DNA of 64,000 nt from an uncultured Gemmatimonadales bacterium (GCA_947259315.1 CAMYLR010000004.1:107406-171405); one strand, 5' to 3'. Numbered from the stretch's first letter, positions 9,147-46,875 are shown. Notes: generated from the sequence alone by a model not told the origin. Program-made: numbers and translations.

Positions 9147-10132
9147 CGGTGGCTCGCGAGGTCCTCGAGTGCGCGCCGGACGGTGGGGCGGATCATCTCC
9201 TTCCGCCAATACAACGTGAAGTCGGTGTTGTCGAGCGGCCTCCCTGTCTTCCACGCTAGTTGAGCGGCTTCGTCGATCGCTTCCGTCGATAACGATGAGC
9301 CTACCAGCGCCTGCGCCGCGGTCTGGACCACCACCGGCGACGACGCGACCCCACCGAGAACGATTCGCGCGCCCTGGACGACACCGTGCGCATCGAGCTG
9401 AGCCCACGCACCGACTCCTAGAACCGGGAAGTCGAACGCGCCGCGCCGGCGCACCTTTCGGTAGCTCGATCGCCAACCGTTCGGGCTCGGCAAGTGGATC
9501 CGCGTCAACAGCTCGTCCTGTTGCTTGGATAGATAGAGGATTCCGTCATCCTGGTAGAGACCCTCGATCGGGATCGAGCGCTCGCCATCCGGCCCGACGA
9601 GATCGACGGTCGCTCCCATCGCCACCAACAGTGGCACAGAGTCGGCCGACTGCACGGCCCAACACCGGGGCGATTGCGGCGCGACCCAGCACACCTCGCC
9701 GTCTTTCTTCATGCAGAAGTCGATCGACTTCCGCCACTCGTAGTTCTGATCGTAGTAGTTGCACCGCGTGTCGAGCAGCACATTGCCACCGATCGTTCCC
9801 ATGTTCTGGAGGATCGGTGTCGAAATGAGGTGCATCGTCTCGGCCAATGCCGGATACGCAACTCGCACGTCCGGGTGCGTCGCGACCTCGGTCAACGTGG
9901 CGGTGGCACCGATCGAAACCGCCCCGTCCGCGCCGGTCACGATGCGCTGCAGCTCGTCGATCGCGTGGAGCGCAATCACGACGGACGGCTCTTGGTGGCG
10001 ACGCTTCATGTTTGGGTAGAGATCCGTGCCGCCAGCCACGTACGCGGCATCGGGTGGCGCTTCCCGCTTTTGAGCGACCGCCTCATCGACCGTCGCCGGC
10101 ACTTGGAACCGGAATCTCGGCAGCCGCATCAT
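9143..10132 (-). CDS. hcrB: FAD-binding subunit with extra [4Fe-4S] motif, 4-hydroxybenzoyl-CoA reductase beta type
   Basis: FAD subunit of a three-part molybdenum hydroxylase/reductase. The FAD-binding core is clear (YVAGGTDLYPNMK near residue 37, then TIGGNVLLDTRCNYYDQ). A Cys-rich insertion follows with the spacing C-x15-C-x7-C-x8-C (RC..., DFC, EVC, PRC). This insert and spacing are what I know from the beta subunit of 4-hydroxybenzoyl-CoA reductase, where it carries an extra [4Fe-4S] cluster; ordinary xanthine dehydrogenase and CO dehydrogenase FAD subunits lack it. I use the ATG at 10132 (329 residues), overlapping the molybdenum subunit's stop. The substrate is not proven, since related aryl-CoA or aromatic hydroxylases share the insert. 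Confidence 0.85.
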   Translation of the reverse strand: MMRLPRFRFQVPATVDEAVAQKREAPPDAAYVAGGTDLYPNMKRRHQEPSVVIALHAIDELQRIVTGADGAVSIGATATLTEVATHPDVRVAYPALAETMHLISTPILQNMGTIGGNVLLDTRCNYYDQNYEWRKSIDFCMKKDGEVCWVAPQSPRCWAVQSADSVPLLVAMGATVDLVGPDGERSIPIEGLYQDDGILYLSKQQDELLTRIHLPSPNGWRSSYRKVRRRGAFDFPVLGVGAWAQLDAHGVVQGARIVLGGVASSPVVVQTAAQALVGSSLSTEAIDEAAQLAWKTGRPLDNTDFTLYWRKEMIRPTVRRALEDLASHR

Positions 10133-12425: not shown

Positions 12426-12957
12426 AGAGCATCTCTCTGGTCGGTTCGCCGGGCTCACCGCGCATGCGGGCAGCGGCCAGCTCGACCGCTTCGTAGATCT
12501 TCAGATAACCGGTGCAGCGACACAGGTTGCCGCCAAGAGCGGTTTCGATATCGGCCCGTGAAGGTTGTGGGTTGTCATCCAACAGGGCCTTCGCCGCCAA
12601 CACGAACCCGGGTGTGCAATAGCCACACTGGGCGGCGCCCAACTCGACAAACGTCTGCTGGAGCGGGTGTAGGCCGTCGGCCGACTCGAGGCCTTCGACG
12701 GTCGTCACGTCATGGCCTTCCAACGTCGCCGGCAAAGCGAGGCACGACAGAACTGGTTGGCCGTCAACAAGCACCGTACATGTACCGCACTCACCGAGCT
12801 CGCAGCCATGCTTAGTACCGGTCAATCCAATGTCTTCACGCAGCACTTCGAGCAGTGTCTTGTGGACGGGCACGGAGACCGCATGTGGCTCGCCATTGAC
12901 GCGCAGCTCCAGTGAGACACTGGCGCCTGCTTCGATCGCTTTGCTGGGTGGTGCCAT
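12412..12957 (-). CDS. hcrC: [2Fe-2S] subunit of a molybdenum hydroxylase (4-hydroxybenzoyl-CoA reductase gamma-like)
   Basis: A 181-residue small subunit that carries electrons between the molybdenum centre and the FAD subunit. The plant-ferredoxin-type cluster is CELGECGTCTVLVDG...LSC at about 50-75. The second cluster domain shows AQCGYCTPG and GGNLCRCTGY. I use the ATG at 12957 rather than the track's 13011. It is the first gene of the operon and overlaps the molybdenum subunit by 14 bases. The subunit type is certain. The HcrC name rests on the neighbouring HcrB-like protein, not on this sequence alone. Confidence 0.88.
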   Translation of the reverse strand: MAPPSKAIEAGASVSLELRVNGEPHAVSVPVHKTLLEVLREDIGLTGTKHGCELGECGTCTVLVDGQPVLSCLALPATLEGHDVTTVEGLESADGLHPLQQTFVELGAAQCGYCTPGFVLAAKALLDDNPQPSRADIETALGGNLCRCTGYLKIYEAVELAAARMRGEPGEPTREMLYGAG

Positions 12958-14913: not shown

Positions 14914-15273
14914 CGACTGATCCTACCGGGGCGCAAATCACGTTCAATCACAGGTTGACGTGAGCGCCGCCTATTCATTCTACTGCAAGTATTTACGTGC
15001 TTTGAGGTACACCCCCACCGGGGTGCGATCACAGGCTAGAACGGGGCCCAGCTGAGGGCCTGCAGAAACGTGAGAATAACGGCGGTGCGGGTCATCATGT
15101 CCCCCGTCTCGACGGGTCATTGATAGCGGTCGCAGGCTGTCTCCCGGTTGCACGATGCGGGCCGATGCCCAACGGGACTGGGCCGCACGGGTTGCTTCCT
15201 CAACCCAACGAACGGCAACTTGGTCACCCGATCGGCGCCGGGACGCCCAGCGCCGACTCTCGCATTCTGCGGT
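14914..15273 (+). other. Unassigned 360-base stretch upstream of the xanthine dehydrogenase operon, several hairpins
   Basis: No convincing gene is seen here. By eye there are short GC-rich hairpins: CACCCC/GGGGTG near 15009-15025, GGCCC/GGGCC near 15045-15060 and CCCGT/ACGGG near 15104-15117. It could be a long structured leader, a small RNA or a decayed region. I cannot match it to a named riboswitch. The 183 bases between the ferritin start and the small ORF (14623-14805) also show nothing I can name. Confidence 0.3.
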
Positions 15274-17448
15274 ATGTCGTTTTGCCTTAGGGGGCCGGTG
15301 GATCGCATCGAGGGACTCGCCAAGCTGACCGGCGCCGAGCGCTACGTGGATGATCTGCCGCTCGACGGGATGCTGTGGGGAATGACCGTCCGTAGCCCCG
15401 CGCCGCGTGGACGCGTTACCGGCGTCCATTTTGGCTCCGGCGTCGACTGGAGTGAGTTTGTGGTCGTCGATCACCACGACATCCCGGGCGACAACACGGT
15501 GCTCCTGATCGAAACCGACCAGCCGCTGCTGGCTGGCGAGTACGTTCGCCACGCCGAAGAACCGATCGCGCTCGTCGCGCATCGTTCGCGAGAGATGGTC
15601 CGGCGGGCGATTCGCGAGATCGAGGTCACGATCGATCCCGACCCGCCGATCTTCGACTTCACCGCCGAACCGACCCAGGACCAGATCCAGCACGGCTCTG
15701 ACAACGCCCTCAAACGAATCGATATCACAAAAGGCGATGTCGACGCTGCCCTGGTGCGGGCGGCCCGCGTTGTCGAAGGCGAGTACCGGACCGGATCACA
15801 AGAGCACGTCTACCTGGAGAACCAAGGCATGATCGCCTGGGAAGAGGACGGCGTGCTCGTCATCAAGGGCAGCCTGCAGTGCCCGTTTTACGTTCTCAAA
15901 GCAGCCGTCCGCGCGCTGGGCAGGGACAGCGACCACGTGCGGATCGTTCAGACCCCGACCGGTGGTGGCTTCGGCGGCAAAGAAGAGTACCCGTCGATGA
16001 TCGCGCTCCACGCGGCGTTGCTCGCACTCAAGGCCGAGCAGCCGGTCAGGATCATCTACGATCGAGGCGAAGACATGCGCGCCACGACCAAGCGCCATCC
16101 GTCGCTGGTCCGGCACCGCACCGGCGTCGACGGTGATGGTCGGCTGGTGGCCCAGGACATCGACGTCGCGCTCGACGGTGGTGCCTACGTCACGCTGTCC
16201 CCGGTCGTCCTGAGCCGAGGCGTGATCCACGCCGCGGGACCATACGCTTGCGACAACGTCCGAATTCGTGGTCGCGCGATGCTGACCAACTCCCCGCCCC
16301 ACGGTGCGTTTCGAGGTTTTGGCGCGCCCCAGACCCACTTCGCCAACGAGCGCCACATGGACGTCATCGCGGCAACAATCGGTATCGACCCCGACGAGTT
16401 TCGACGTCGCAACTTGATCGTTGACGGCCAGACCACCGCCACCGGGCAACGGATCACCGATGGCACCGACCGGGTGGCGTTGCTCGACCACGCGCTCGAG
16501 CTATCGAGTTATCACGAGCGGCAAGACAAGCATCGCTCGCTCAACGCGTCCCACCCCTACCTGCGGCGCGGAATCGGGCTAGCGGCCTTTCATCACGGCG
16601 CCGGGTTCACCGGCAGTGGTGAGGTCATGCTCGCGTCCGAGCTCCACTTGGCGGGTTTGCCGGATGGGCGGATCGAAGTCTTGAGTGCCAACATCGAGAT
16701 GGGTCAAGGCACGTTGACGGTGTTCACCAAGCTGGTCTGTGACCGACTCGGCTTACGACCCGAACACGTCGTTATCGCCGATGCCGATACCGGTCGGGTT
16801 CCCGATAGCGGTCCGACCGTTGCTTCGCGAACGACCATGGTCGTCGGCCGATTGGTCGACGATTCCGATACCGGCGATCGAGTGACGCAGGCGATCATCG
16901 ACTGGCATGTCGAGCGCGACGAGCCGCTCGTCGGTCACGCCAAGTACGAACCACCACCGGGGATCGAGTGGGATGAGACGACGTACACGGGCGACGCCTA
17001 CGCGACCTACGGCTGGGCGACGTACGTCGCCGAGGTCGAGGTCGATCTGCGCACTTACACCGCGCGTGTGACTGATTTCGTCGCTGTCCAGGACGTCGGC
17101 ACCGTTCTGCACGAGACACTCGCCCGGGGTCAGATACAGGGCGGTGTCGTTCAAGCGATCGGCTGGGCGTTGACCGAGGAGTGCGCCTGGAGCAACGGTG
17201 TCATGCAGAACAACCAACTCACGAACTACATCATCCCGACCAGCGACGACGTGCCGCCGATCCGGGTGAGCTTCGTCGAGAACCCGTTCGCTCATGGTCC
17301 GCACGGCGCTAAGGGACTCGGTGAACTACCGATGGATGGTCCCGCTCCGGCGATCGCTAACGCCGTCGCGCGCGCCATCGACGCCGATCCGCGCGCGATC
17401 CCGTTGACACCCGAGCACCTGATGGATCTCCTCTCCAATGGACGCTGA
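15274..17448 (+). CDS. Molybdenum-binding subunit of a xanthine dehydrogenase-type hydroxylase
   Basis: Catalytic subunit of a three-part molybdenum hydroxylase, probably hydroxylating hypoxanthine/xanthine to urate given the ureide genes alongside. Recognisable features are LAKLTGAERYVDDL at the N-terminus, QEHVYLENQG, the cofactor loop TPTGGGFGGKEEYPS, GAFRGFGAPQ and the catalytic glutamate in KGLGELPMDGPAPAIANA near the C-terminus. I use the ATG at 15274 (724 residues). A GTG at 15298, with a G-rich stretch (AGGGGG) before it, would give a start beginning (V)DRIEGLAK and is equally plausible. The next gene starts 11 bases inside its 3' end. It is the intact counterpart of the broken subunit at 10-12 kb. 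Confidence 0.93.
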   Translation: MSFCLRGPVDRIEGLAKLTGAERYVDDLPLDGMLWGMTVRSPAPRGRVTGVHFGSGVDWSEFVVVDHHDIPGDNTVLLIETDQPLLAGEYVRHAEEPIALVAHRSREMVRRAIREIEVTIDPDPPIFDFTAEPTQDQIQHGSDNALKRIDITKGDVDAALVRAARVVEGEYRTGSQEHVYLENQGMIAWEEDGVLVIKGSLQCPFYVLKAAVRALGRDSDHVRIVQTPTGGGFGGKEEYPSMIALHAALLALKAEQPVRIIYDRGEDMRATTKRHPSLVRHRTGVDGDGRLVAQDIDVALDGGAYVTLSPVVLSRGVIHAAGPYACDNVRIRGRAMLTNSPPHGAFRGFGAPQTHFANERHMDVIAATIGIDPDEFRRRNLIVDGQTTATGQRITDGTDRVALLDHALELSSYHERQDKHRSLNASHPYLRRGIGLAAFHHGAGFTGSGEVMLASELHLAGLPDGRIEVLSANIEMGQGTLTVFTKLVCDRLGLRPEHVVIADADTGRVPDSGPTVASRTTMVVGRLVDDSDTGDRVTQAIIDWHVERDEPLVGHAKYEPPPGIEWDETTYTGDAYATYGWATYVAEVEVDLRTYTARVTDFVAVQDVGTVLHETLARGQIQGGVVQAIGWALTEECAWSNGVMQNNQLTNYIIPTSDDVPPIRVSFVENPFAHGPHGAKGLGELPMDGPAPAIANAVARAIDADPRAIPLTPEHLMDLLSNGR

Positions 17449-17929
17449 CGCGAACATGCCACCGATGAGCCGGCCACCGATCGAAGTGCCATTCACGCTC
17501 AACGGGATGGAGGTTACGGTGTCGATCGATCCCGCCGAGCGGTTGCTCGACACGTTGCGCTATCGATTGGGCATGACCGGCAGCAAGGAAGGGTGCGGTG
17601 AGGGCGAGTGCGGAGCGTGCACCGTGCACGTCGACGACATACCGGTGAACTCGTGTTTGATCCCGACCTATCAGGTGCGCAACGCGCAGGTGCGGACGAT
17701 CGAGTCGATCGACCCGAGCGACGTCGGTGCCCTGCTCAGCTCTGGCGCCACCCAATGCGGAGCGTGCACGCCGGGCGTCGTCATGACCGCGGTGTGGGTA
17801 CGGGAGCACCCGGAGCTGCTCGAGACGCATACGCTGCGTGAGCTGATGGCCGGCAATCTGTGCCGGTGCACTGGCTACGACGGAATCATCGATGGTGTGC
17901 GTCGATCGCTCGACGAGGGTCAACCGTGA
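17438..17929 (+). CDS. [2Fe-2S] subunit of xanthine dehydrogenase-type hydroxylase
   Basis: A 163-residue electron-transfer subunit with both cluster motifs: CGEGECGACTVHVDD...NSC in the ferredoxin-like half and TQCGACTPG with GNLCRCTGY in the helical half. It overlaps the upstream molybdenum subunit by 11 bases and the downstream FAD subunit by four (GTGA), consistent with stoichiometric translation of the complex. In-frame ATGs at codons 7 and 10 are alternative starts. Confidence 0.94.
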   Translation: MDADANMPPMSRPPIEVPFTLNGMEVTVSIDPAERLLDTLRYRLGMTGSKEGCGEGECGACTVHVDDIPVNSCLIPTYQVRNAQVRTIESIDPSDVGALLSSGATQCGACTPGVVMTAVWVREHPELLETHTLRELMAGNLCRCTGYDGIIDGVRRSLDEGQP

Positions 17930-18747
17930 GCGTCTTCATGCCGACGACGCTCGCCGAGGCGCTCGAGATACAACGCGACGAAGACGCAACCCCGATGGCC
18001 GGTGGGACCGACTTGCTCGTTCACTGGCCCGAGCAGCTCGAGCTTCACGATCGCGACTACTTGGACTTATGGGGCATCGACGAGCTGCGTCGCATCGAAT
18101 GGTCGGACGACACGCTCGAGCTCGGCGCGCTCACCACGTACTGGGACGTCATCACCGACGCCAAGATCGGTGCCGCCTTTCCGTTGCTAGTCGACGCCGC
18201 GCGCCAGATCGGCGCCGTACAGATCCAGTCTCGCGGCACATGGGCTGGCAACATCGCCAACGGTTCTCCGGCCGCTGATGGCGTCCCGGTCTTGATGGCG
18301 TACGGCGCATCGGTGGTGATCGCTTCACACGACAAGCACCGGCAGGTACCACTGGAGCGATTCTACGCCGGCTACAAGGAGATGGACTTGGCGCCAGACG
18401 AGCTGATCGTGGCGATCCGGATACCGAACCGGACGTATCGGCACGAACGGTTTATAAAAGTCGGGTCACGCCGCGCTCAGGCGATCGCCAAAGTGGGCGC
18501 GGCGCTCGTATCGAACGGCTCGGGGTGGCGTGTAGTCGCCAGCAGCGTCGCACCAACGATTCGGCGGTGCCCGACGATCGAAGCCCAGATCTCAGATGGC
18601 GAGCCGCTCAGCTCTCCTGACGATCTGTTGCCGGCCATTCGGGCCGATGTCTCACCGATCGATGATCTGCGATCGACCGCGGCGTACCGCGAACGGGTGA
18701 TGAGCCGCGTGCTTTATTATGCGATTGAGGAAATGAGCCACCGATGA
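17926..18747 (+). CDS. FAD-binding subunit of xanthine dehydrogenase-type hydroxylase
   Basis: A 273-residue FAD subunit passing electrons to the final acceptor. The FAD motifs are TPMAGGTDLLVHW near residue 22, IGAVQIQSRGTWAGNIANGSPAADG in the middle and FIKVGSRRAQAIAKVGAAL. It lacks the four-Cys insert present in the HcrB-like paralogue at 9.1 kb, so the two complexes differ in cofactor content. The track's 17860 start lies inside the preceding gene. The GTG at 17926 overlaps the previous stop and fits translational coupling. The stop overlaps the next gene by four bases. Confidence 0.93.
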   Translation: MSVFMPTTLAEALEIQRDEDATPMAGGTDLLVHWPEQLELHDRDYLDLWGIDELRRIEWSDDTLELGALTTYWDVITDAKIGAAFPLLVDAARQIGAVQIQSRGTWAGNIANGSPAADGVPVLMAYGASVVIASHDKHRQVPLERFYAGYKEMDLAPDELIVAIRIPNRTYRHERFIKVGSRRAQAIAKVGAALVSNGSGWRVVASSVAPTIRRCPTIEAQISDGEPLSSPDDLLPAIRADVSPIDDLRSTAAYRERVMSRVLYYAIEEMSHR

Positions 18748-20108
18748 ACGACACGCCACGAACGCTCAAAGATGCGGCTATCGCTGCGGCTCTCGACGGG
18801 CTGGCGTCCGCCAACCGGAACTTCGCCGCCGCCTATCCCGGGCCACGTCCAGGCCGGCAGCCGGTCCATACCGTCTATGGCGGGGCCGACCTCTTTCGTG
18901 CCGACTCAGCGGCCAAGCTGGGGGCCCTCGCGCGCCAGGCGTTGAACCGATATGCACCAGACTTCGAGACGTTCGCCGAGGTGGTTGGAATCCCGAGCGA
19001 GCCGGCCGAGCTAGCTGAGCGCGTCTACCTGAAAGTCGCCGACAAGCTCGAACAGGAGCCGGTCGAGGACTTCCGTATCGATTTCGAGGACGGCTACGGC
19101 CACCGTCCCGACGACGAGGAAGACGGTTGCGCCGCCAGCGCCGCCCGCGAAGTGGCCGCTGGTCTGGAGCGTGGATCGTTACCGCCGTTCGTCGGTATTC
19201 GGATAAAACCGCTCACCGATGCGCTCGCCGGTCGCGCGATCAGCACACTCGACATCTTCGTCACTACGCTGCTGGATGCCACCGGTGGCACACTCCCGCC
19301 CGGCTTCGTGGTCACCAACCCCAAGGTGGTCGTGCCCGGGCAGGTGGCCGCACTGGCCGACCTCTTCGACCAACTCGAGGCGGGACTCTCGCTACCGTCT
19401 GGGTCACTCAAGATGGAAATCATGGTCGAGACACCGCAGTCGATCATCGGCCCGGATGGCCGTTGCGCTGTGCCGAGTCTGGTGGCAGCCGGTCGCGGGC
19501 GCTGTATCGCGGCCCACTTCGGCGTCTACGACTACACCGCCAGCATCGAGATTACGGCTCACCACCAGGATCTCGATCACCCCGCTTGTGACTTCGCACG
19601 ACACATGATGCAAGTAGCCCTAAGCGACGCTGGTGTATGGATTTCCGATGGTGCTACGAATGTCTTGCCGGCGCGGGTCCATCGCCCCTCTCCCGGATCG
19701 ACCCTGACACTCCAGCAAGAGCACGAGAACCGGTCCGCGGTCCACCGTGCGTGGCGACTCCATTTCCGTCACGTCATGCACAGCCTGCGGCACGCCTATT
19801 TCCAGGGGTGGGACTTGCATCCGGCTCAGCTGCCGACCCGTTATGCCGCCCTCTACTCGTTCTTTCTTCAGGAGCGCGACGCTGGGATCGAGCGGTTGAG
19901 TCAATTCGTCGGGCAGGCCGCCCGGGCCACCTTGACCGGCGACGTCTTTGATGACGCCGCCACCGGTCAAGCGTTGCTCAACTTCTTCTTGCGGGGCGTT
20001 AACTGCGGCGCGTTCGATGCTGGCGACATCGAACGAACTGGCCTCACGCTAGCCGAGATCGAAGCCCGCTCGTTTGGGGAAATCGTCGCCGCCCGTCAAT
20101 CGAGCTGA
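18744..20108 (+). CDS. Aldolase/citrate lyase/malate synthase-like TIM-barrel protein (DUF6986-type)
   Basis: A 454-residue protein of the CitE/HpcH/malate synthase superfamily. Metal- and substrate-site motifs are visible: DFEDGYG at 113-119, KMEIMVETPQSI with Glu at about 225/229, and AAHFGVYDYTASIE with Asp at about 263. It overlaps the FAD subunit by four bases (ATGA) and faces the ureide genes. I infer that it condenses glyoxylate from allantoin breakdown with acetyl-CoA, or performs a related C-C bond reaction. It is not a canonical malate synthase A or G by length or sequence, so the reaction is unproven. Confidence 0.75.
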   Translation: MNDTPRTLKDAAIAAALDGLASANRNFAAAYPGPRPGRQPVHTVYGGADLFRADSAAKLGALARQALNRYAPDFETFAEVVGIPSEPAELAERVYLKVADKLEQEPVEDFRIDFEDGYGHRPDDEEDGCAASAAREVAAGLERGSLPPFVGIRIKPLTDALAGRAISTLDIFVTTLLDATGGTLPPGFVVTNPKVVVPGQVAALADLFDQLEAGLSLPSGSLKMEIMVETPQSIIGPDGRCAVPSLVAAGRGRCIAAHFGVYDYTASIEITAHHQDLDHPACDFARHMMQVALSDAGVWISDGATNVLPARVHRPSPGSTLTLQQEHENRSAVHRAWRLHFRHVMHSLRHAYFQGWDLHPAQLPTRYAALYSFFLQERDAGIERLSQFVGQAARATLTGDVFDDAATGQALLNFFLRGVNCGAFDAGDIERTGLTLAEIEARSFGEIVAARQSS

Positions 20109-20112
20109 CGAA

Positions 20113-20454
20113 TCAACTCCCGCGATAGGTCGAATAGCCGAACGGATTGATCAAGATCGGCACGTGGTAGTGCTCGGTTGGGTGAGCAACGGAAAAGGTG
20201 ACGTCAACGTACGGATAAAAGGCGGTCATGCCCAACCGCTCGAAGTAGGCGCCGGTTGCGAACCGCAGCCGGTACTCCCCCGACTCGAGCGTGGTTGCGA
20301 GCAGACCGACCGAGCGACCCTCGACATCCGTGGTATCGCTCCCGACCTCAAGCCACGCTCCGCTCGCGTCGCGGCTCGAAAGCCGAACTTCGACGCCCAC
20401 AGCCGGGCGACCTCTCGTTGTATCAAGTACGTGCGTCGTGATCGGGCTCGTCAA
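20113..20454 (-). CDS. uraH: 5-hydroxyisourate hydrolase (transthyretin-like)
   Basis: Hydrolyses 5-hydroxyisourate, the product of urate oxidation, to OHCU. It is a 113-residue transthyretin-fold protein with the N-terminal ITTHVLDTTRGRPA signature, the EHYHVPIL motif and the diagnostic C-terminal tetrapeptide YRGS. The start is a TTG 32 bases inside the end of uraD. The start choice is supported by the conserved N-terminal block falling immediately after it. It is the last gene of the allantoinase-allantoicase-uraD-uraH transcript. Confidence 0.96.
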   Translation of the reverse strand: MTSPITTHVLDTTRGRPAVGVEVRLSSRDASGAWLEVGSDTTDVEGRSVGLLATTLESGEYRLRFATGAYFERLGMTAFYPYVDVTFSVAHPTEHYHVPILINPFGYSTYRGS

Positions 20455-20929
20455 CGAGCAGCTTCTCCAATCGCAGGATCGTGATCTTCCGAAGTTCTTC
20501 GGCCGCCACCGACAACTCCATCTCTGGGCTGTTGCCCAACCGGTTCTCGAGCTCGGTCGCCATCTCGTCGCCGCTCTTACCGGTAGCGCTGATCAGAAAG
20601 ATATAGCCGAACTTCTGCTCGTACGCCCGCTGCCCTACCGCCAACCGATCGCGCGCCTCATCGTTCGCCGTAGCCACGCCCGATTGCTCCTCACGCGACC
20701 AACCGTGGGTACGTTCCCCGATGCGTGGGTGGTGTTCGATCGCATCGCGCCAGTCGTCTTCATCCAGCACGCGCCACGCCTCCTCGGCTTCCTGTCGCAG
20801 TTCCTCCACGGTGACGTACGGTCGACCGCTAGCGACCCGTTTCACCCATCGCTCGGCAGCGCAGCAACGGCGAAGCTCGGCGCAAGTCTGAGCGAGCGAG
20901 AGCTTGTTGAACCGTTCCAGGCCGGTCAT
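20423..20929 (-). CDS. uraD: OHCU decarboxylase
   Basis: Decarboxylates 2-oxo-4-hydroxy-4-carboxy-5-ureidoimidazoline to (S)-allantoin, the step after UraH. It has 168 residues. The catalytic-site motif HPRIGE is at 67-72 and the family signature KFGYIFLISATGKS is at about 125-138. The ATG overlaps the allantoicase stop by four bases, and its own 3' end overlaps uraH by 32 bases, so the UraD and UraH steps are tightly coupled. Confidence 0.96.
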   Translation of the reverse strand: MTGLERFNKLSLAQTCAELRRCCAAERWVKRVASGRPYVTVEELRQEAEEAWRVLDEDDWRDAIEHHPRIGERTHGWSREEQSGVATANDEARDRLAVGQRAYEQKFGYIFLISATGKSGDEMATELENRLGNSPEMELSVAAEELRKITILRLEKLLVDEPDHDART

Positions 20930-21933
20930 GAGAGTTCGGCTTTGGCCGGCGTCCCGAAGGCCCGGAAGCGGGCCACGCCCCCGTCTGGATAGATGTTCAG
21001 TCGCAAGTGAGTCGCCACGCGGAGTGTGCTCTCTGGCACGTCGAATCGATGCTCGCTATCGGCCTGCAGTTCGGTGCGTGGCAACAGCTCGGCCCACTCG
21101 CCGTCCGGTGCGTCGAACTCATCCGCGTCGGAGTCAACGTCCAGCAGCTCGACCGAGCAAGCTGCCGGATAGTTCCCCTTGAAGTGGTGGGTATCGACCT
21201 GGAGTGCGGAGATCACGCCGCGTCGCCCCAGTCGAACGACAACCCAGTCGTGTCCCGGGCCGCGGCGGCGGCGGGTCTCCCAACCGTCGAACATGCCGAT
21301 CGACTTTCCGGGCAGCAGTAGATTTCTGGGCTGACTGAAGAACGCATCCGAGCAGCCGATAGCACGGCCCCCGTGATGGGCGGCGAGCAGATCGATCTCG
21401 CCGCTGATGTGCCGCCAATCGGGTCGCACGAGCCCGTGCACGCGCAGCCGCGCCACCCCGCCGTCGGGGTAGATGTTGAGCCGTACGTGCGTATACGCCT
21501 CGGTCGCGTCGAGTTCGAACGGGTTGGAGGTGTCAGGCTCGAGCTCGACTTCGCCCAGCAACGTCGCCCAATCGGTGTCCTCGAGCGAATCTGTTTCCGA
21601 AACACACGCGTCGAGCGAAGCGCGGGCTGGGTGGTTGCCGCGAAAGTGGCTCGTGTCGATCACCACGCCGCGTGGTTCGCCCGGAGCGCCGAACCGCACT
21701 ACACACCAGTCGTGACCCGGATCGCGGCGGCGGCGAGTCTCCCACCCATCCATCCACTTGCCACGATCGGTATAACGGTCGGGATCGAATATCGGCGCGG
21801 CGGGTTTGAGCAGGTTCTCCGCCGGCGCAAAAAACTCGTCGTTGAATGCCACCACCTGACCGCCGAACCGCTCAGCTGCGAGATCGCAGTACCGCTCGAA
21901 CGCAAAGTGTTGTGACTCGTGGTCCATAATCAT
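20926..21933 (-). CDS. alc: Allantoicase
   Basis: Splits allantoate into ureidoglycolate and urea. The protein is an internal duplication of the allantoicase jelly-roll domain. Each half carries FF.P..LL, then GWETRRRR..GHDW, then HVRLNIYPDGGVARLR or a close copy (first half about 25-170, second about 185-330). This two-domain form is standard for the family. The track start (ATG 21933) overlaps the allantoinase stop. The ATG at 21927 is better spaced from GAGGG and may be the true start. Urea release implies urease or export elsewhere, as none is in the window. Confidence 0.95.
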   Translation of the reverse strand: MIMDHESQHFAFERYCDLAAERFGGQVVAFNDEFFAPAENLLKPAAPIFDPDRYTDRGKWMDGWETRRRRDPGHDWCVVRFGAPGEPRGVVIDTSHFRGNHPARASLDACVSETDSLEDTDWATLLGEVELEPDTSNPFELDATEAYTHVRLNIYPDGGVARLRVHGLVRPDWRHISGEIDLLAAHHGGRAIGCSDAFFSQPRNLLLPGKSIGMFDGWETRRRRGPGHDWVVVRLGRRGVISALQVDTHHFKGNYPAACSVELLDVDSDADEFDAPDGEWAELLPRTELQADSEHRFDVPESTLRVATHLRLNIYPDGGVARFRAFGTPAKAELS

Positions 21934-23273
21934 TCCCTCGGCTCGAGCAAGACTCCCGACGGCGCGGCGAAATCGCCGTTATCGTAGACGCACCGACCAC
22001 GCACGTATGTCTGTTCGACGACGCCGTGCAGCGTTCGGCCCTGATACGGCGTCAGCCCGTGGCGCTGGTGCAGCTTCTCACCATCAACCTTGAACGTCCG
22101 GTCGGGATCCCATATCACCAGATCAGCGTCCCGGCCAACCGCGATCGCTCCCTTCCTATCGTCGAGGCTGGCCAACCGTGCCGGCTGATCGCACATCCAC
22201 TGAGCGATCGCAGCAACGTCGAAACCCCGACTGTGAGCGGCCGTCCATACCACCGCCAGGCTCAGCTCGAGCGATGCGATTCCGCCCCACGCGGTCACGA
22301 AGTTACCGTCCGCGCTCTGCTTCAGGTCAGGCGGGCACGGTGAGTGATCGGAAGCCACGAGGTCGATCGTCCCATCGGCCAGACCACCCCAGAGCGCTTC
22401 CCGATGTACAATTTCGCGGATCGGCGGTGCGCATTTCCACGCCGTATCTCCGTCCTCGATCTCGTCAGCAGCAACCATCAAGTAGTGGGGACACGTTTCC
22501 ACGGTGAGCGGGATCCCTTCCTGTTTTGCAGCCCTTATTGCGTCGATCGCGGTTCCGCTGGCCAAGTGCACGATGTGGACCCGGCACGCGGTCGCACGGC
22601 TCAGATCGATCATCCGCTCGATCGCGCGTTCCTCGCACACCGGCGGTCGCGATGCCAGGTACTCGTCGTACGGTTGGCGTGAGCGGCCTTCAATTGCGGT
22701 TAACGCGGGCTCGTGTTCAGCGTGAACTAGAAGTACCGCGCGACGAGCCAACCTCTCCATCGCACGGCCCAGCTCCGCGTCGCCGATAGCCTCGAACTCG
22801 GCCACACCCGACGGAACAAGGAACGCCTTGAACCCGAGCGCACCCGCCTCGAGTAGCGGCTCGAGCTGGTCTTCGTTCCCCGGCACGACACCACCCCAGA
22901 ACCCAACGTCCACAACGCACTTTCCACGCGCTGCCGCGATTTTCTCGCGCAACGCAGCAATCGTGGTTGTCGCCGGAATCGAATTGAGCGGCATGTCGAC
23001 GATCGTCGTCACGCCCCCGGCCGCGGCGGCGCGCGTCGCGCTCTCGAACCCTTCCCAATCGGCTCGCCCCGGCTCGTTCACGTGAACGTGCGTGTCGACG
23101 ATTCCCGACATGACGACACAATCACCCGCATCGATGACTTTTGTCTCCCCCAATTCGGCGTCGTAATTGTCGACCGACTCGATCGCACCTGCATCGATTC
23201 TCACCGTCGCCGCGCGAATCCCATCTGGAAGGGCGACCCGTCGACCGCGGATGACAAGCTTCGGCTCGTTCAC
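21930..23273 (-). CDS. allB: Allantoinase
   Basis: Amidohydrolase that opens the allantoin ring to allantoate. It has 447 residues from the GTG at 23273, chosen because AAAGGTAG lies upstream and the conserved N-terminus (KLVIRGRRV) follows. The binuclear metal site is visible: His62/His64 in DTHVHVNEPGR, the carboxylated lysine in LGFKAFLVPSG at about 149, HAEHEPA, VHIVHLAS and ASDHSPCPP. It is the first gene of the ureide operon and is divergent from hslR with a 56-base gap. Confidence 0.96.
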   Translation of the reverse strand: MNEPKLVIRGRRVALPDGIRAATVRIDAGAIESVDNYDAELGETKVIDAGDCVVMSGIVDTHVHVNEPGRADWEGFESATRAAAAGGVTTIVDMPLNSIPATTTIAALREKIAAARGKCVVDVGFWGGVVPGNEDQLEPLLEAGALGFKAFLVPSGVAEFEAIGDAELGRAMERLARRAVLLVHAEHEPALTAIEGRSRQPYDEYLASRPPVCEERAIERMIDLSRATACRVHIVHLASGTAIDAIRAAKQEGIPLTVETCPHYLMVAADEIEDGDTAWKCAPPIREIVHREALWGGLADGTIDLVASDHSPCPPDLKQSADGNFVTAWGGIASLELSLAVVWTAAHSRGFDVAAIAQWMCDQPARLASLDDRKGAIAVGRDADLVIWDPDRTFKVDGEKLHQRHGLTPYQGRTLHGVVEQTYVRGRCVYDNGDFAAPSGVLLEPRE

Positions 23274-23329
23274 GTCACTACCTTTTTCGTGATACGGCTC
23301 ATAGCGCGAATCTAGAATGAGGATCGATC

Positions 23330-23764
23330 TTGCACGCGCCAATACAAGAAGAAGCGCCCGACAAACGTATCCGACTCGATCGCTGGCTCTGGGCGGCTCG
23401 GCAATACAAGACCCGCTCGATGGCCTCAAAAGCGGTCGGCGGCGGCAAGGTCCGGCTCAACGATCAGCGCACAAAGCCCGGTGCGGCGGTACACGTCGGC
23501 GACCGAGTGACGGTTCGCAAGGGTCCATACGAATATCGACTCATCGTAGACGCACTCTCCGAACAGCGCGGTCCCGCGCGCGAAGCGGTCAAGCTCTACA
23601 CGGAAACCGCTGATAGCGTCGCCGAGCGTGATGCCCGCCGCGCGCAGATGAAGCAGTCCCTTGTACAGGGGTATGAAGGCAAGGGACGGCCGACCAAGAA
23701 GGAGCGACGGGAGCTCGAGCGGCTACGCCGACGCTCGCTCCACGGCCCGCATGAAGGCGAGTAA
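23330..23764 (+). CDS. hslR: Hsp15-like S4-domain RNA-binding protein
   Basis: Small ribosome-associated heat-shock protein that, in Escherichia coli, binds stalled 50S subunits carrying nascent chains. The S4 domain occupies residues about 13-75 (RIRLDRWLWAARQYKTRSMA, GGKVRLN, VHVGDRVTVRKG) and is followed by a basic helical tail (GRPTKKERRELERLRRR). The start is TTG, nine bases after GAGG. Its last 42 bases overlap the 3' end of the convergent trpF-like gene, so antisense interference between the two transcripts is possible. Confidence 0.9.
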   Translation: MHAPIQEEAPDKRIRLDRWLWAARQYKTRSMASKAVGGGKVRLNDQRTKPGAAVHVGDRVTVRKGPYEYRLIVDALSEQRGPAREAVKLYTETADSVAERDARRAQMKQSLVQGYEGKGRPTKKERRELERLRRRSLHGPHEGE

Positions 23765-24379
23765 TCTGGCTTCGTCGAGCTGACCGTGGATTCGGACGCC
23801 CGTGCATAGATCGACCGCGTAGGGTTGGACCGCGGCGATCGCCTCGCCGACGTTCTCTGGGTTCAATCCACCCGCCAAGAACACCGGTACCGGTGCCGCA
23901 TCACGGATCGCTCGACTGATGGCCCAATCGTGAACCCGGCCGGTCCCCCCCAACTCCTTGACCGACGCGTCGGGGCGACCGGAGTCGAGCAACAATGCAT
24001 CGACCTCGGACGCTACCGATAACGCCTCGTCGATCGACTCCCGACCCAGAACGTGAACTACTTGTACTAACTGAATCGTGGGTAGCACCCGACGGAGCTC
24101 GTGACGGGCGGCCGACTCGAGCCGGTCGACGAGCTGGATCCCGGTGACTCCACATCGTCGCTGTTGGTCGATGATCGCCGCCGGATCGGTAAGGGCGGTC
24201 AGCAATAGCGTCGTCACTCCGGATGGCACGTGCGGTGTGATGGCGGCGATCTCGGCCTCGTCGATCGGGCCTGGGCCGCTCGGCATGGCCGACACGAGCC
24301 CGAGCGCGGCGGCGCCATGCCGGACAGCGAGCTCGGCCTCGGCTACGCTGGCGATGCAGCACACCTTGACTCGCGTCAT
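23723..24379 (-). CDS. TrpF-like phosphoribosylanthranilate isomerase homologue, not in a trp operon
   Basis: A 218-residue (beta/alpha)8-barrel of the PRA isomerase family. The catalytic pair is kept: Cys7 in MTRVKVCC and Asp132 in LLLDSG. The phosphate-binding ends FLAGGLNPENV and VDLCTGVR are also kept. The substrate-loop motif of true TrpF (an Arg in the KRYI block) is replaced by MPSGPGPID, and VQLHG is altered to IQLVD. The ATG overlaps the psuG stop by four bases. No other tryptophan gene is near. I infer an Amadori-type isomerase acting on another phosphoribosyl amine, or a role tied to PsuG. A true TrpF displaced from its operon remains possible. Confidence 0.75.
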   Translation of the reverse strand: MTRVKVCCIASVAEAELAVRHGAAALGLVSAMPSGPGPIDEAEIAAITPHVPSGVTTLLLTALTDPAAIIDQQRRCGVTGIQLVDRLESAARHELRRVLPTIQLVQVVHVLGRESIDEALSVASEVDALLLDSGRPDASVKELGGTGRVHDWAISRAIRDAAPVPVFLAGGLNPENVGEAIAAVQPYAVDLCTGVRIHGQLDEARLLAFMRAVERASA

Positions 24380-25245
24380 CGGGCTGGGTCGTCGATCGCG
24401 CGTGCGATCAACGCCGCCACGCGTGCGTTGTTGACCAGCAGCGCCTGGTTGGCAGCTAACGATCGACCCTCGGTGTGCGCCACCATCCGGTCGAGCAGAA
24501 AGGGCGTCAAACTCGGGCCCGCGACGCCTTGGGTCTGCGCCTCGGCCAGAGCCCGTTCGATGGCGTGCGCCGATTCGCGCTCGGTCAACGCTTGGTCGGC
24601 CGGTGGCGGGACGCAAACCAACAGCGCTCCCGGCTGCGACAATCGAGAATGCTCACGCCAAACCGCTGCCACCTGACCCGCCGCGTCAACCGATTGTCCC
24701 AACCCAAGACCGCTAGCCGCGGTCCAGAAAGCGGGCCACTCGTCGGTTCCGAAACCGATGCACGCCACGCCCAGGGTCTCCAGCTTCTCGACCGTCGCCG
24801 GTAGGTCGAGAATCGCTTTCGCACCCGAGCACACGACGAGCATAGGCGTTCGGGACAGCTCGAGTAAATCGGTCGAAATGTCGCGTGGTCCCGTGTTCCG
24901 GTGAACCCCACCGATTCCCCCCGTCGCCATCACGGCGATTCCGGCGCGGTGCGCGAGGAAGAGTGTCGCCGCCACCGTCGTGCCCCCGCTGTCGCCGGTG
25001 GCGATCGCAAACGACAACTCTCGCGTGCTGAGCTTGGTACCCGAGTCGGCGAGCGATGCCAGCTGCTCGAATTCGAGCCCCACGACCGGCTCGCCCCCGA
25101 GGACGCCGATGAACGCTGGACTAGCGCCCGCTTCGCGAACAGCGGTCGCCATCGTCTCGGCCACCCCGAGTCGCACATCGGCTGGCAAACCACTCGTCAA
25201 GAATGCCGTTTCAAGCGCGACCGGAGCCTGCTCGCTCAATGTCAA
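24376..25245 (-). CDS. psuG: Pseudouridine-5'-phosphate glycosidase homologue
   Basis: PsuG reversibly cleaves the C-glycosidic bond of pseudouridine 5'-phosphate to uracil and ribose 5-phosphate. The 289-residue protein shows VALETAFLTSG (catalytic Glu12), GTKLSTREL (Lys71), MATGGIGGVHR, VVCSGAKAILDLP (Schiff-base Lys, about 143) and TPFLL near the end. The track start at 25404 runs into the oxidoreductase; I chose the TTG at 25245, which overlaps its stop (TTGA). No pseudouridine kinase is present. Homologues also form C-C bonds in C-nucleoside biosynthesis, so direction and substrate here are open. Confidence 0.92.
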   Translation of the reverse strand: MTLSEQAPVALETAFLTSGLPADVRLGVAETMATAVREAGASPAFIGVLGGEPVVGLEFEQLASLADSGTKLSTRELSFAIATGDSGGTTVAATLFLAHRAGIAVMATGGIGGVHRNTGPRDISTDLLELSRTPMLVVCSGAKAILDLPATVEKLETLGVACIGFGTDEWPAFWTAASGLGLGQSVDAAGQVAAVWREHSRLSQPGALLVCVPPPADQALTERESAHAIERALAEAQTQGVAGPSLTPFLLDRMVAHTEGRSLAANQALLVNNARVAALIARAIDDPAR

Positions 25246-26330
25246 ATCACCGCCGTGCTCGAAGGCGCGTCGGCGACCCGCACGAGCCGACCCGATTCCG
25301 CCGACGCGATACAAGCCAACGCCGCCTGCACGGCGAGCTTCCCATCCTCGAGGGTGCACATCGTTGGTTCTCCGCACCGTACACACTCGGCGAAGTGGCG
25401 CCATTGATCGCGATACGACTCGGCGAACCCGCCACCCCGGCTCGCGCTGGCGACTCCCCGCGGTAACTCCTTGATCGTACGTAAAAGGCCTTGCAACCGG
25501 TCACCAGGGGACCCCGGAAACTGTGCGATCGGTGCGAACTCGACACCGTCAAACCGGCAGAGCGAGAGTCGAAGCCGGCCCTTCCGCCCAAATACTTCCA
25601 TGTCATGAGCGGTCGCGGCGTACTGCGAGAAGGCTAACGAGACGAGCACCCCGTCAGCCATGCGGGCGATCACGGTCGCGGTCAGGTCATCCGCCTCGCC
25701 GGACCGACTCGACGCGAAAATATCTTCGATCTCGCTGCCGCTCACGTAACGCCACAAGTCCAGATAGTGAACCGCCAACTCGAATAACGCGCTGCCACCT
25801 GTCGCGCGCCGTCGGCGCCAATCGGGAAAATCGCGATCGATCCGGTAGCGGCTGCTCCAAACAGCGTGTACGAACTCGATCGATCCGAGATCGCCACGTT
25901 GAACCCTCTTTCGAGCCGCCACCGCATGATGGTGGTGCCGCAAATTATGACCGACCAGCACCGCGCGGTCGGATCGATCCGCTCGAGCGATCAGACGCTG
26001 CGCATCGTCCAGATCAAGCGTCAGCGGCTTCTCGACAAACAGATGCTTATCGGCGTCCAAAGCCGCCATCGCAAGTGGCACGTGATGCTCGGGCGGGACG
26101 CAGATGGCAACCGCGTCGACGCTTGGATCGGCGATCAATGCCTCGGGGTCGGCGTACCGCCCTGGGATCGAAAACTCGTCTGCCACCTGTTCCAGCCGTG
26201 CAGCATCGGTATCTGCCAGCGCGATGACTTCGATATCAGTATGCGGCCTGATAGCTGGAAGGTGCAGTCCGCTGGTGGCGTGTCCACAGCCCACGATCCC
26301 CAGCCGAATCGGCTCAACCTGATGAAGCAT
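25242..26330 (-). CDS. Gfo/Idh/MocA family NAD(P)-dependent oxidoreductase
   Basis: A 362-residue sugar-type dehydrogenase: N-terminal Rossmann fold RLGIVGCGHATSGLHLPAI, the catalytic-lysine motif HLFVEKPLTLD at about 113-123, and a C-terminal alpha/beta substrate domain with ELAVHYLDLWRYV. Family members oxidise, reduce or epimerise sugar or inositol carbons and often act on nucleotide sugars. It sits between three glycosyltransferases and psuG; its ATG is 17 bases inside the preceding glycosyltransferase gene. I infer that it modifies a sugar used by the same pathway. The exact substrate is unknown. Confidence 0.88.
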   Translation of the reverse strand: MLHQVEPIRLGIVGCGHATSGLHLPAIRPHTDIEVIALADTDAARLEQVADEFSIPGRYADPEALIADPSVDAVAICVPPEHHVPLAMAALDADKHLFVEKPLTLDLDDAQRLIARADRSDRAVLVGHNLRHHHHAVAARKRVQRGDLGSIEFVHAVWSSRYRIDRDFPDWRRRRATGGSALFELAVHYLDLWRYVSGSEIEDIFASSRSGEADDLTATVIARMADGVLVSLAFSQYAATAHDMEVFGRKGRLRLSLCRFDGVEFAPIAQFPGSPGDRLQGLLRTIKELPRGVASASRGGGFAESYRDQWRHFAECVRCGEPTMCTLEDGKLAVQAALACIASAESGRLVRVADAPSSTAVI

Positions 26331-27315
26331 CAGAACCCATTGTGTCGGTCATAGGCCGATCGCGTTCCGCAACGTGATTGAACCGGTTTAACTCGATGCT
26401 GCGCCGAGACTCGGCCGCTCGTCCCTCACCAAGCAGGTAGCCAGTCATCTCACCGATGGTATGCGACACCAGCCCGAGCAAAAGCGGGGGCAGAACCTTC
26501 GGTATCAGCTCGCGTTGCCGCCCGCAGCGCCAGATCTGCGCCACCACACGCTGCAATCGTACCAACAAGATCGCTGGTGCCGCGATAGCGTATGCCACGC
26601 GACGCGTGTGCCACTTATGCGAGCGCGCTCGCCCCGAGCCGAACAGACGACCGCCGTGGAACTCGCTTTTCGCGTACGACTTCGCTTTCGACACGTTCAC
26701 GTGGCGGGACACCGCTCCGGGTTCGAGATAAAGCCCGCTGCCCTCCTTGTTTAAGTTGGTGATCAAAATCGTCTCCGCCTCGAGCAACGGAGCCAGCCGC
26801 GACCCGTACTCTTCCAGAACTAACTTCTTGTACGAAGTGTGATGCGGCGGCAGACGATCGACCTCTCCACCGCTGACCGGCGCGATCCACGGCGCGAAAT
26901 CGGTCAGCATGCTGGCCCAGCTCACCATGCTGTCCGGATTGGCGTTCAGGATAGCCCCACCGACGGCGTCCCACGGACCGTCATGCGCCTTAATCAACGC
27001 CTTCGCCCACCCCGGCTCGGGATAGGAGTGCTCCTCGACGTACACAACGGCCGGCGCACTTGCCGCGCGCACCCCCGCGGCATGCGCCTCGCCAGTATAG
27101 TTGATCGACCCAGTTTCGATGATCCGCACACTGTGGAACCCGGCGACGTCTTCGGGATCGTACTCCAGGCCATTCGAGGACGGCGTCACGATCAACAGCT
27201 CGATCTGATCGCGCGCTGTCTGCGCGTGAAGGTGCCGAACGGTGCGCCGGATCACATCGAACCCGCCAAGCGTGATGACGATGACGGAGAGCGCCGGCGT
27301 TGCGAGCTGAGTCAT
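26314..27315 (-). CDS. Glycosyltransferase family 2-like protein (tandem paralogue 2)
   Basis: A 333-residue GT-A fold protein with the N-terminal LSVIVITLGGFDVIRRTVRHL and a metal-site-like VYVEEHSYPEPGW in place of a standard DxD. The acceptor-side block is WIAPVSGGEVDRLPPHHTSYKK. The C-terminal region has two hydrophobic stretches (AIAAPAILLVRL; PPLLLGLVSHTIGEMTGYLLG), which suggests membrane association. It is clearly paralogous to the adjacent 27312-28298 gene, sharing SGGEVD.LP.H.TSYK and the helical tail, so the pair arose by tandem duplication. It overlaps both neighbours in one operon. Confidence 0.82.
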   Translation of the reverse strand: MTQLATPALSVIVITLGGFDVIRRTVRHLHAQTARDQIELLIVTPSSNGLEYDPEDVAGFHSVRIIETGSINYTGEAHAAGVRAASAPAVVYVEEHSYPEPGWAKALIKAHDGPWDAVGGAILNANPDSMVSWASMLTDFAPWIAPVSGGEVDRLPPHHTSYKKLVLEEYGSRLAPLLEAETILITNLNKEGSGLYLEPGAVSRHVNVSKAKSYAKSEFHGGRLFGSGRARSHKWHTRRVAYAIAAPAILLVRLQRVVAQIWRCGRQRELIPKVLPPLLLGLVSHTIGEMTGYLLGEGRAAESRRSIELNRFNHVAERDRPMTDTMGSDASSG

Positions 27316-28298
27316 CGGATCTCCATCGGGGTTGGGATGTCGTTCGACGGTATAGAAGCCGCATCCCAGTCTGGCTCGACATACCGCACGCGATCAAACT
27401 CGTATTGGCTGAGCCTCGCACGCGCGTCACCGGCGCCAAGGAGACAGCCAAAACACTGTCCGACCGCGTCCACCATCAACCCGTAGACGAGGTTCGGCAA
27501 GACTGCGAGCGACGCGCGCGGGTGGCTGCGCACGATGCGCCAAAGACGAACCAACGGTACCAACGGCGTGCCAACCGCAAACAACCACCGGTCAAGTCCA
27601 GACCAATTCTGGTAGCGAGCGCGGGTCGCAGCAAAGACTCTGCCACCGTTGAATTGGACGTGTGTGAAGGGCATGAATTGCGCGAAGTTCAGATGCGCGA
27701 TTCTCGCCCGCGGCTCGAGCAGCAAACGATGTCCAGCGGCTCGCAGGCTCCAGTGCAGGATCGTCTCGGCTTCCATTATGGCGTCAAGATCCTCCCCATA
27801 ATCCAGCAACATCGATCGCTTGTAGCTGGTGTTGTGCCCAGGCAGAAAGTCGACCTCGCCACCGCTCACCGGTTCGATCCACGGTCCGTAGCCGATAAGC
27901 ATATCGGCGCGACTGATCCGCGTGCGCGGGTTGCCGTTCCGCACCGCGGGTCCGACCGCCGCCCACCCACGCTCGTGCGCCTCGATCAACTTTTCGGCCC
28001 AGTCGGGATCAGGAAAGGCGTGGTCCTCCGCCAGCGCGACAACCGGTGCATGGGCCGCGCGCACACCGGCGGCGTTGGCACTGCCGCAAGAGTCGAACGA
28101 GCCGAGCGAGACGATCTCGACGTTGGAGAACCTCTCGAGCTCATCCCGATCGAGAGTGATTGACGACGGAACCACGACCACGAGCTCCAACCGATCGACG
28201 ACAGTCTGGGCACGCAGGAAACCGATCGTGCGGCGAATCATCTCGTAATCGCCAGGTGTCGCCAACACTACCGATAGCGCGGCTTTCAAAACCGTCAC
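27312..28298 (-). CDS. Glycosyltransferase family 2-like protein (tandem paralogue 1)
   Basis: A 328-residue GT-A-type protein. It has LSVVLATPGDYEMIRRTIGFL at the N-terminus, ALAEDHAFPDPDW as the probable metal/nucleotide site, and WIEPVSGGEVDFLPGHNTSYKRS as the acceptor block. Hydrophobic C-terminal segments (FAVGTPLVPLVRLW; LPNLVYGLMVDAVGQCFGCLLGAGDARAR) mirror those of its neighbour. It overlaps the upstream glycosyltransferase and the downstream paralogue by four bases each. The donor and acceptor are unknown; the EDH-type motif differs from the DDD in the third glycosyltransferase, which suggests distinct specificities. Confidence 0.82.
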   Translation of the reverse strand: MTVLKAALSVVLATPGDYEMIRRTIGFLRAQTVVDRLELVVVVPSSITLDRDELERFSNVEIVSLGSFDSCGSANAAGVRAAHAPVVALAEDHAFPDPDWAEKLIEAHERGWAAVGPAVRNGNPRTRISRADMLIGYGPWIEPVSGGEVDFLPGHNTSYKRSMLLDYGEDLDAIMEAETILHWSLRAAGHRLLLEPRARIAHLNFAQFMPFTHVQFNGGRVFAATRARYQNWSGLDRWLFAVGTPLVPLVRLWRIVRSHPRASLAVLPNLVYGLMVDAVGQCFGCLLGAGDARARLSQYEFDRVRYVEPDWDAASIPSNDIPTPMEIR

Positions 28299-29212
28299 TC
28301 TGACGCGCTCCCGGCGGCGTCGGCCTTACGACGAGATCTACGCTCCCAGAAAAACCCAACCGCGTTCGCGAGCTGAGCGATCCCTAGGAGCGGCGCAACC
28401 TTGAGCGCTGTCCGAACGGGTAGTTGCATGAAGGGGTACCGAAAGAGATCCACATAGAACGCGGGCGGCTCGATTCTGACGGAGGTCTCTCCACGTTGCG
28501 CGCGAGTCAAATGAAAGTAATACGCGCCCCGGCCATAACCGAATTGTTGGCGCCAGAATCTGCGTGGGGTCAGATCATGATAGTGATAGACGATCGCCTC
28601 GGGCGCGTAAAGCATCGGCAACCCGTTATACAACCAGCGATCGCATAGCTCCCGATCCTCGGCCGCCGGACGGGGAATGCTCGTGTCGAAACCGCCGACC
28701 TCATCGAACCGCCGGCGTGAAAACGCCATGTTGTTCGAAGTGAGGAAGCTCGCCTGTTCGGCGGGCGCGTTGTAGTAAGAGTAGAGGTACCCGATCAACG
28801 TCTGACTGGCCGTCGCGTACATATTTCGGGCCAGTGCGTTGATCGTCAAACCACCGATTAGCAGATCCGGATTCTCGGTGAGGCGTGCCGCCAACGTGGC
28901 CAACCAATCTGGTGCGGGCGTGCAGTCGTCATCGGTAAAGGCAACGTATGTTCCCTTCGATCTGGCCACGCCCGTGTTGCGCGCGGTTGCCGGCCCCGAT
29001 GGAGTTTGGGTGACCAGCTTGACGTCAAGCCCGTCCGACACGCCATCGACGATCGAGTCGAGCGGTGTGTCACTACCGTCGTCGACGACGATCACCTCCA
29101 GCGCGTCGTGCGGATAATCGAGCTGCGCCAACGAGCGCAAACACCGTTCCAGCGAGGCTGGCCGGTTGTGCGTCGCAACAACGACCGAAAACGAAACCGC
29201 AGTGCCTGTCAA
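28295..29212 (-). CDS. Glycosyltransferase family 2
   Basis: A 305-residue GT2 enzyme with the standard signatures SVVVATHNRPASLERCL, EVIVVDDGSDTPLDS and the metal-binding AFTDDDCTPAPDW, then GGFDTSIPRPAAEDRELCDRW as the acceptor/ED-type motif. A C-terminal amphipathic/hydrophobic region (LFRYPFMQLPVRTALKVAPLLGIAQLANAVGFF) suggests membrane attachment. The start is a TTG 10 bases after GAGG; no ATG lies upstream of the first strand. It is the first gene of the six-gene overlapping operon running down to the trpF-like gene, just beyond a terminator that separates it from the M24 peptidase. Confidence 0.88.
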   Translation of the reverse strand: MTGTAVSFSVVVATHNRPASLERCLRSLAQLDYPHDALEVIVVDDGSDTPLDSIVDGVSDGLDVKLVTQTPSGPATARNTGVARSKGTYVAFTDDDCTPAPDWLATLAARLTENPDLLIGGLTINALARNMYATASQTLIGYLYSYYNAPAEQASFLTSNNMAFSRRRFDEVGGFDTSIPRPAAEDRELCDRWLYNGLPMLYAPEAIVYHYHDLTPRRFWRQQFGYGRGAYYFHLTRAQRGETSVRIEPPAFYVDLFRYPFMQLPVRTALKVAPLLGIAQLANAVGFFWERRSRRKADAAGSASE

Positions 29213-46775: not shown

Positions 46776-46875
46776 CTCGTCCCGTCTCAATCGAACGCTG
46801 GAGAAGTCGGCAAGCTATCGTCCACCCGTCAGCCGGTCGACAAGAATCACGCCAGTCTGTTATCGTCCCTATGCG

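Follow-up and report, generated by a model that had tools for sequence, protein, structure and literature searches.

We analysed a window of 64,000 nucleotides of DNA from an uncultured Gemmatimonadales bacterium (GCA_947259315.1, CAMYLR010000004.1:107406-171405), in which six overlapping minus-strand genes bring together three family 2 glycosyltransferases (GT1, GT2 and GT3), a Gfo/Idh/MocA oxidoreductase, a member of the pseudouridine-5'-phosphate glycosidase family (psuG) and a gene that resembles trpF, the gene for phosphoribosylanthranilate isomerase (PRAI) (Table 1). The genome carrying the window is a Gemmatimonadota metagenome-assembled genome (MAG) of 2.4 Mb in 33 contigs, 96% complete; its nearest named relative is a Gemmatimonadota MAG whose TrpF-like protein is 83% identical. 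From GT1 to the TrpF-like gene the successive overlaps measure 4, 4, 17, 4 and 4 nucleotides, with TTGA and ATGA among the junction sequences, and the TrpF-like gene shares 42 nucleotides with the 3' end of an S4-domain gene that converges on it. GT2 and GT3 are 43% identical to each other (blastp). An earlier note on this DNA had described such an overlapping set and had taken it to form one transcript, and co-transcription of the six genes is indeed likely given the overlaps. It had also proposed a pathway for making or modifying a C-glycosyl or phosphoribosyl-derived conjugate, which the glycosyltransferases and the Gfo/Idh/MocA enzyme could decorate. Our comparison of genomes shows two independent modules joined at this locus, and its main result is, rather than a new operon, a family of TrpF paralogues that is apparently undescribed in the literature searched.

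The full six-gene order is seen only within the window's genus. A second genome of that genus (G011) retains it together with the nearby ureide-breakdown genes, at 77-88% identity for most genes and 71% for uraD, and shares the 4-nucleotide overlaps between Gfo and PsuG and between PsuG and PRAI. The sister genus (G003, G015) carries a tightly packed psuG-MFS-TrpF-like unit, with a transporter of the major facilitator superfamily (MFS) in the middle and no adjoining glycosyltransferase or Gfo genes. The transporter of this unit in G003 is 50.6% identical over 389 amino acids (blastp) to an MFS protein encoded in the window. The convergent S4 gene again follows the TrpF-like gene in G003, and a partial S4 match lies at the contig edge in G015; this gene forms a syntenic boundary in both genera and keeps the same relative position in loci L036 and L037. 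The glycosyltransferase and Gfo genes, for their part, have homologues that cluster without psuG in G015, G159, G193 and G093. In three of these genomes (G159, G015, G193) GT1 homologues stand beside Gfo/GT2, and in G159 a Gfo-GT2-GT1 trio, 41-48% identical to the window genes, overlaps by 4 nucleotides. These polysaccharide-type clusters of Gemmatimonadota resemble the upstream part of the window's set but contain neither psuG nor the TrpF-like gene, and their gene order is unlike that of the window.

The six genes are not one conserved pathway. Because the sister genus has the psuG-MFS-TrpF-like unit without glycosyltransferase or Gfo genes, the conserved core consists of psuG and the TrpF-like gene, in one family only. 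The two genes are adjacent with 4-nucleotide coupling, or one gene apart, in all four genomes of the family that have both, and their linkage spans genera that are about 62% identical and have lost the remaining surrounding synteny. The conservation on which the earlier note hung its proposal was thus found for the psuG-trpF pair within the family, but not for the six-gene order beyond the genus.

Table 1 Genes of the six-gene set and other features of the window (coordinates counted from the first nucleotide of the window).
Feature	Coordinates	Strand	Details
GT1, family 2 glycosyltransferase	28295-29212	-	305 aa, TTG start, PF00535 1.5e-29; 81% identical to G011
GT2, family 2 glycosyltransferase	27312-28298	-	328 aa, GTG start, PF00535 4.5e-10
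GT3, family 2 glycosyltransferase	26314-27315	-	333 aa, ATG start, PF00535 9.4e-07
Gfo/Idh/MocA oxidoreductase	25242-26330	-	362 aa, ATG start, PF01408 2.8e-29, PF22725 1.3e-22
psuG, pseudouridine-5'-phosphate glycosidase family	24376-25245	-	289 aa, TTG start, PF04227 5.7e-95
PRAI/TrpF-like gene	23723-24379	-	218 aa, ATG start, PF00697 7e-17
S4-domain RNA-binding gene, convergent	23330-23764	+	PF01479 2e-09
Ureide (purine) breakdown genes uraH, uraD, alc, allB	20113-23429	-	TIGR02962, TIGR03180, TIGR02961, TIGR03178, above cut-off
MFS transporter	45561-46790	-	PF07690 1.4e-34; about 21 kb from the operon

The TrpF-like gene falls into a distinct non-tryptophan clade, a membership that the reader behind the earlier note had overlooked. 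Two short peptide patterns, scanned against genome contigs, yielded 271 confirmed relatives, of which the best 80, at 53-83% identity, were read. Within the class, 46 of 198 genomes carry the gene, with a clear score gap to canonical TrpF. In a phylogenetic tree, 107 TrpF paralogues and 20 canonical sequences split with support of 100/99, with the qualification that the canonical row L168 (G012) and the Thermotoga row lie on long branches and that the placement of L168 is unsure. Median identity is 58% within the clade, 40% among the sampled canonical TrpF sequences and 30% between the two groups. The distribution of the clade is patchy and spans about 12 phyla as well as plasmids, among them those of Acaryochloris, Sphingomonas and Sphingobium.

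An AlphaFold2 model of the window protein (predicted local distance difference test score, pLDDT, 92.5) has the (beta-alpha)8 fold of TrpF and superimposes on TrpF structures with template modelling (TM) scores of 0.80-0.85, the likeness to TrpF (PF00697, 1nsj/1lbm) reaching a TM score of about 0.85 at 27% sequence identity; the fold search next gives ribulose-phosphate epimerases and thiamin-phosphate synthases. Cys7 and Asp126, the catalytic pair of Thermotoga TrpF, are kept in 105/107 and 107/107 clade members, respectively (C7 and D132 in the window protein). The phosphate-binding GGTG and AGGL motifs are retained too. The substrate side of the pocket differs from that of TrpF. Arg36, which in the Thermotoga enzyme binds the carboxylate of anthranilate, is present in 18 of the 20 canonical sequences but is replaced by Gly in 106 of the 107 clade members. 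Two further substrate-side residues, Glu184 and Lys190, are invariantly replaced by Arg and Leu. Cys takes the place of both Gly8 and Ser180, and the clade has two invariant His residues; its signature reads C8/G37/H109/H150/C192/R196/L201. The window protein falls below the cut-off of every TrpF equivalog of NCBIfam; its best score, 121.5 bits, compares with a required 215.

Three TrpF-like copies carry one in-frame stop codon each (L197 in G147, TGA; G089:C1:3831083-3831721, TAG; L204 in G103, TAA), which suggests decay of the gene in some lineages. The long-branched L168 (G012:C87:104150-105000) is a highly divergent second PRAI homologue that stands beside a normal TrpF and has Glu at the Arg36 position, among other changes; it is perhaps another group of TrpF paralogues. 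A PRAI homologue is also encoded on three Corynebacterium plasmids of 25-29 kb (NZ_CP021253.1, NC_010813.1, NZ_CP068164.1), where it shares about 32% identity with the protein of the window.

At the level of whole genomes, the TrpF-like clade is independent of tryptophan synthesis. In 25 of the 28 genomes examined, trpC is accompanied by two PRAI genes, of which the canonical one usually adjoins it, and the remaining three (the window's genome, G027 and G030) have kept the paralogue although neither trpC nor a canonical TrpF was found in them. Coexistence with the complete pair in the former and retention without it in the latter indicate a non-tryptophan isomerase; a role as substitute for TrpF was considered and rejected on this basis. 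The window's genome, in which the TrpF-like gene is the sole PRAI domain and trpC is not detectable, has a relative of the same genus, G011, with both trpC and canonical TrpF, so its tryptophan genes have perhaps been lost or lie within the missing 4%. A literature search for a TrpF paralogue tied to pseudouridine, or of unassigned function, returned nothing relevant.

The other partner of the core is a whole-length member of its family: window PsuG matches PF04227 over profile positions 10-290 of 291, and its best matches in the Protein Data Bank are glycosidases of pseudouridine 5'-phosphate (PsiMP), including, over the full length, the E. coli PsuG structure 4gij (6.4e-56). Residues E31, K93, T130, H137, S147, D149, K166 and N289 (YeiN numbering) are all conserved, and the catalytic ones among them are found in the window, in all four family members and in all class sequences compared; Asp149 is one of the residues with a role in catalysis. 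In YeiN, Lys166 forms an iminium with open-chain ribose 5-phosphate with the assistance of Glu31, and Asn289 also has a stated role (PMC7722734). Judged by these residues, the window protein is most likely an active PsiMP C-glycosidase. It departs from PsuG/YeiN in a shorter N-terminus, in the lack of a PsuK or nucleoside transporter partner, in a loop near Glu31 that in the window family has changed from SHGMPxPQN to T-S/T-GLPxDVR, and in its position in the tree, where the psuG genes of the window family and family f9 form a subclade with 100/100 support.

PsuK is missing from the locus, as the earlier note had said, and no PfkB gene adjoins window psuG. Nor did a search of the rest of the 96%-complete genome find a psuK orthologue, its four PfkB proteins matching psuG-linked kinases of class members only by general PfkB similarity, and for the kinases linked to psuG in G027 and G030 the window family yielded no orthologue. 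This absence is not diagnostic, because as a rule psuG in the class has no kinase next to it: among its 32 psuG genomes, PfkB adjoins psuG only in G027, G030 and G113. At several loci with a lone psuG the gene is tightly linked to one for 5-formyltetrahydrofolate cyclo-ligase, which it overlaps or closely precedes in three genomes of family f8 (L011, L025, L028). RNA decay yields 5'-nucleotides directly, so PsuG could work on PsiMP from this source without PsuK, and the missing partner does not exclude PsuG activity.

Combining these results, we consider it reasonably probable that one transcript holds two modules, a PsiMP-cleaving PsuG with a non-tryptophan TrpF-like isomerase on the one hand and a separate glycosyltransferase/Gfo set on the other. 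One module, three family 2 glycosyltransferases and the Gfo/Idh/MocA enzyme, would be of a surface or secreted-glycan type, its genes presumably serving surface glycans, and was joined upstream in the window's genus only. The other comprises psuG and the TrpF paralogue, which in the sister genus flank the MFS transporter. PsuG would act on 5'-pseudouridylate released by RNA turnover, yielding uracil and ribose 5-phosphate through a Lys166-type Schiff base, and would need neither PsuK nor import. The TrpF-like enzyme, to judge from its fold and catalytic pair, most likely carries out an aldose-to-ketose (Amadori-like) isomerisation with Cys/Asp as general acid and base, and its substrate would be a ribosyl-5-phosphate compound that lacks the carboxylate of anthranilate, not phosphoribosylanthranilate.

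Three points weigh against this reading. The distinct subclade and the altered Glu31 loop suggest that the substrate of window-family PsuG might differ from PsiMP, and a drift of this kind is possible. A uracil phosphoribosyltransferase, which bears on the fate of the released uracil, was not found above cut-off in the family. Finally, the psuG-TrpF-like linkage, which the reading treats as optional, persists across genera while other synteny is lost, and this hints at a real functional link.

A bolder proposal, which we advance only tentatively and regard as doubtful, is that the clade, annotated as TrpF in about 12 phyla, would be a non-tryptophan phosphoribosyl isomerase with a substrate of its own, coupled translationally to PsuG in the window family as part of an undescribed pathway for C-nucleotides or ribosyl phosphates. 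Another reading, likewise doubtful, is a two-step route in this family. PsuG would release open-chain ribose 5-phosphate from a C-nucleotide and the TrpF-like enzyme would isomerise this product, or an amine adduct of it, thereby pulling an equilibrium that favours the C-nucleotide, with the sister-genus MFS protein moving substrate or product. The YeiN equilibrium lies far toward PsiMP, and its hydrolysis constant of 8.9e-5 M (PMC7722734) means that product removal is required. The tight spacing of the two genes in the family and the rank of ribulose-phosphate epimerases in the fold search also speak for the route, as does co-occurrence in the class, where psuG and the TrpF-like gene are found together in 27 genomes against about 14 expected (Fisher p 1.8e-5); relatedness was not removed from this count, which is confounded by phylogeny. 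Ribose-5-phosphate isomerases, however, exist independently of TrpF-like enzymes, and the linkage occurs in no genome examined other than those of the family. Outside the class sample, psuG is present in just 13 of 50 TrpF-like host genomes, drawn from many phyla, a rate similar to that of the controls (3/14), and a general co-occurrence of the two genes was rejected on this basis. The TrpF-like clade is not tied to psuG outside the window family; the association is family-specific and not an obligate pathway.

It is improbable that the psuG-MFS-TrpF-like unit is a detoxification or resistance cassette directed against a C-nucleotide or phosphoribosyl compound and acting by inactivation and export, with the clade as a horizontally spread detoxification enzyme often found near exporters. 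The patchy spread over phyla and plasmids would fit, as would the EamA, MFS and GNAT genes found directly upstream of the TrpF-like gene at some loci and the efflux operon that lies within 5 kb of it on two sphingomonad plasmids. Most copies, however, stand alone: neighbourhood clustering of 80 TrpF-like loci in search of a shared partner found no family in more than five loci, antisense shadow open reading frames aside, and the EamA neighbours are confined to a few related lineages.

The biosynthetic route of the earlier note, with PsuG as a C-glycosynthase whose product is decorated by the glycosyltransferases and the Gfo enzyme, we consider very improbable. Some PsuG homologues, namely AlnA and those that act in minimycin and showdomycin synthesis, do form C-C bonds (PMC8724604); this holds for the alnumycin and minimycin pathways that the note had named but not for its third, pseudouridimycin, which uses the TruD-like PumJ (PMC8724604). 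The YeiN equilibrium favours synthesis (PMC7722734), no psuK was found, and co-transcription is probable. Synthase and glycosidase are not separable by sequence here, and the window protein shares the superfamily with AlnA, whose structure (4ex8) it matches at 2e-41, more weakly than it does the PsiMP glycosidases. Yet each set also occurs in the absence of the other, both the glycosyltransferase/Gfo genes and psuG; neither a HAD phosphatase nor a base-building non-ribosomal peptide synthetase, polyketide synthase or cyclase was found among the six genes and their annotated neighbours, unlike in the pathways of these C-glycosynthases; and the window glycosyltransferases resemble polysaccharide and mycofactocin-type family 2 enzymes, not nucleoside-tailoring ones. 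At locus L006 of another genome (G147:C4:994206-998075), a HAD phosphatase gene precedes psuG by about 50 bp on the same strand, a pairing as in C-nucleoside pathways; in the tree this psuG falls together with E. coli PsuG.

That the TrpF-like gene is the organism's tryptophan TrpF, moved out of the trp operon, is extremely improbable, since its standing as sole PRAI domain in the window's genome is outweighed by the undetectable trpC there, by the separate canonical TrpF and trpC of G011 and 24 other genomes, and by the replacement of Arg36 on the substrate side and of other invariant residues.

TrpF is a textbook enzyme on which models of enzyme evolution have been built. With a second TrpF-like orthologous group, its substrate-side residues invariantly changed, beside the canonical TrpF of many genomes, many annotations as phosphoribosylanthranilate isomerase are probably wrong, and a common metabolic reaction perhaps still awaits assignment. 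The linkage to psuG is a first genomic hint at the substrate class of the clade, ribosyl 5-phosphate compounds derived from C-nucleotides.

Past the S4 gene lie the ureide genes, which are context and stand outside the operon, and plus-strand xanthine dehydrogenase genes with a DUF6986 gene; xanthine dehydrogenase subunits, DUF6986, uraH, uraD, alc and allB are grouped at 15148-23429. The DUF6986 gene (18744-20108) directly follows that of the FAD subunit of xanthine dehydrogenase, a pairing kept in G011 at 88% identity, so DUF6986 may belong to purine breakdown. On the minus strand at 10129-12458, a molybdenum subunit of the 4-hydroxybenzoyl-CoA reductase/xanthine dehydrogenase type is spread over two overlapping frames that match profile positions 1-257 and 324-746, which points to a frameshift, either a true one or one introduced by assembly.

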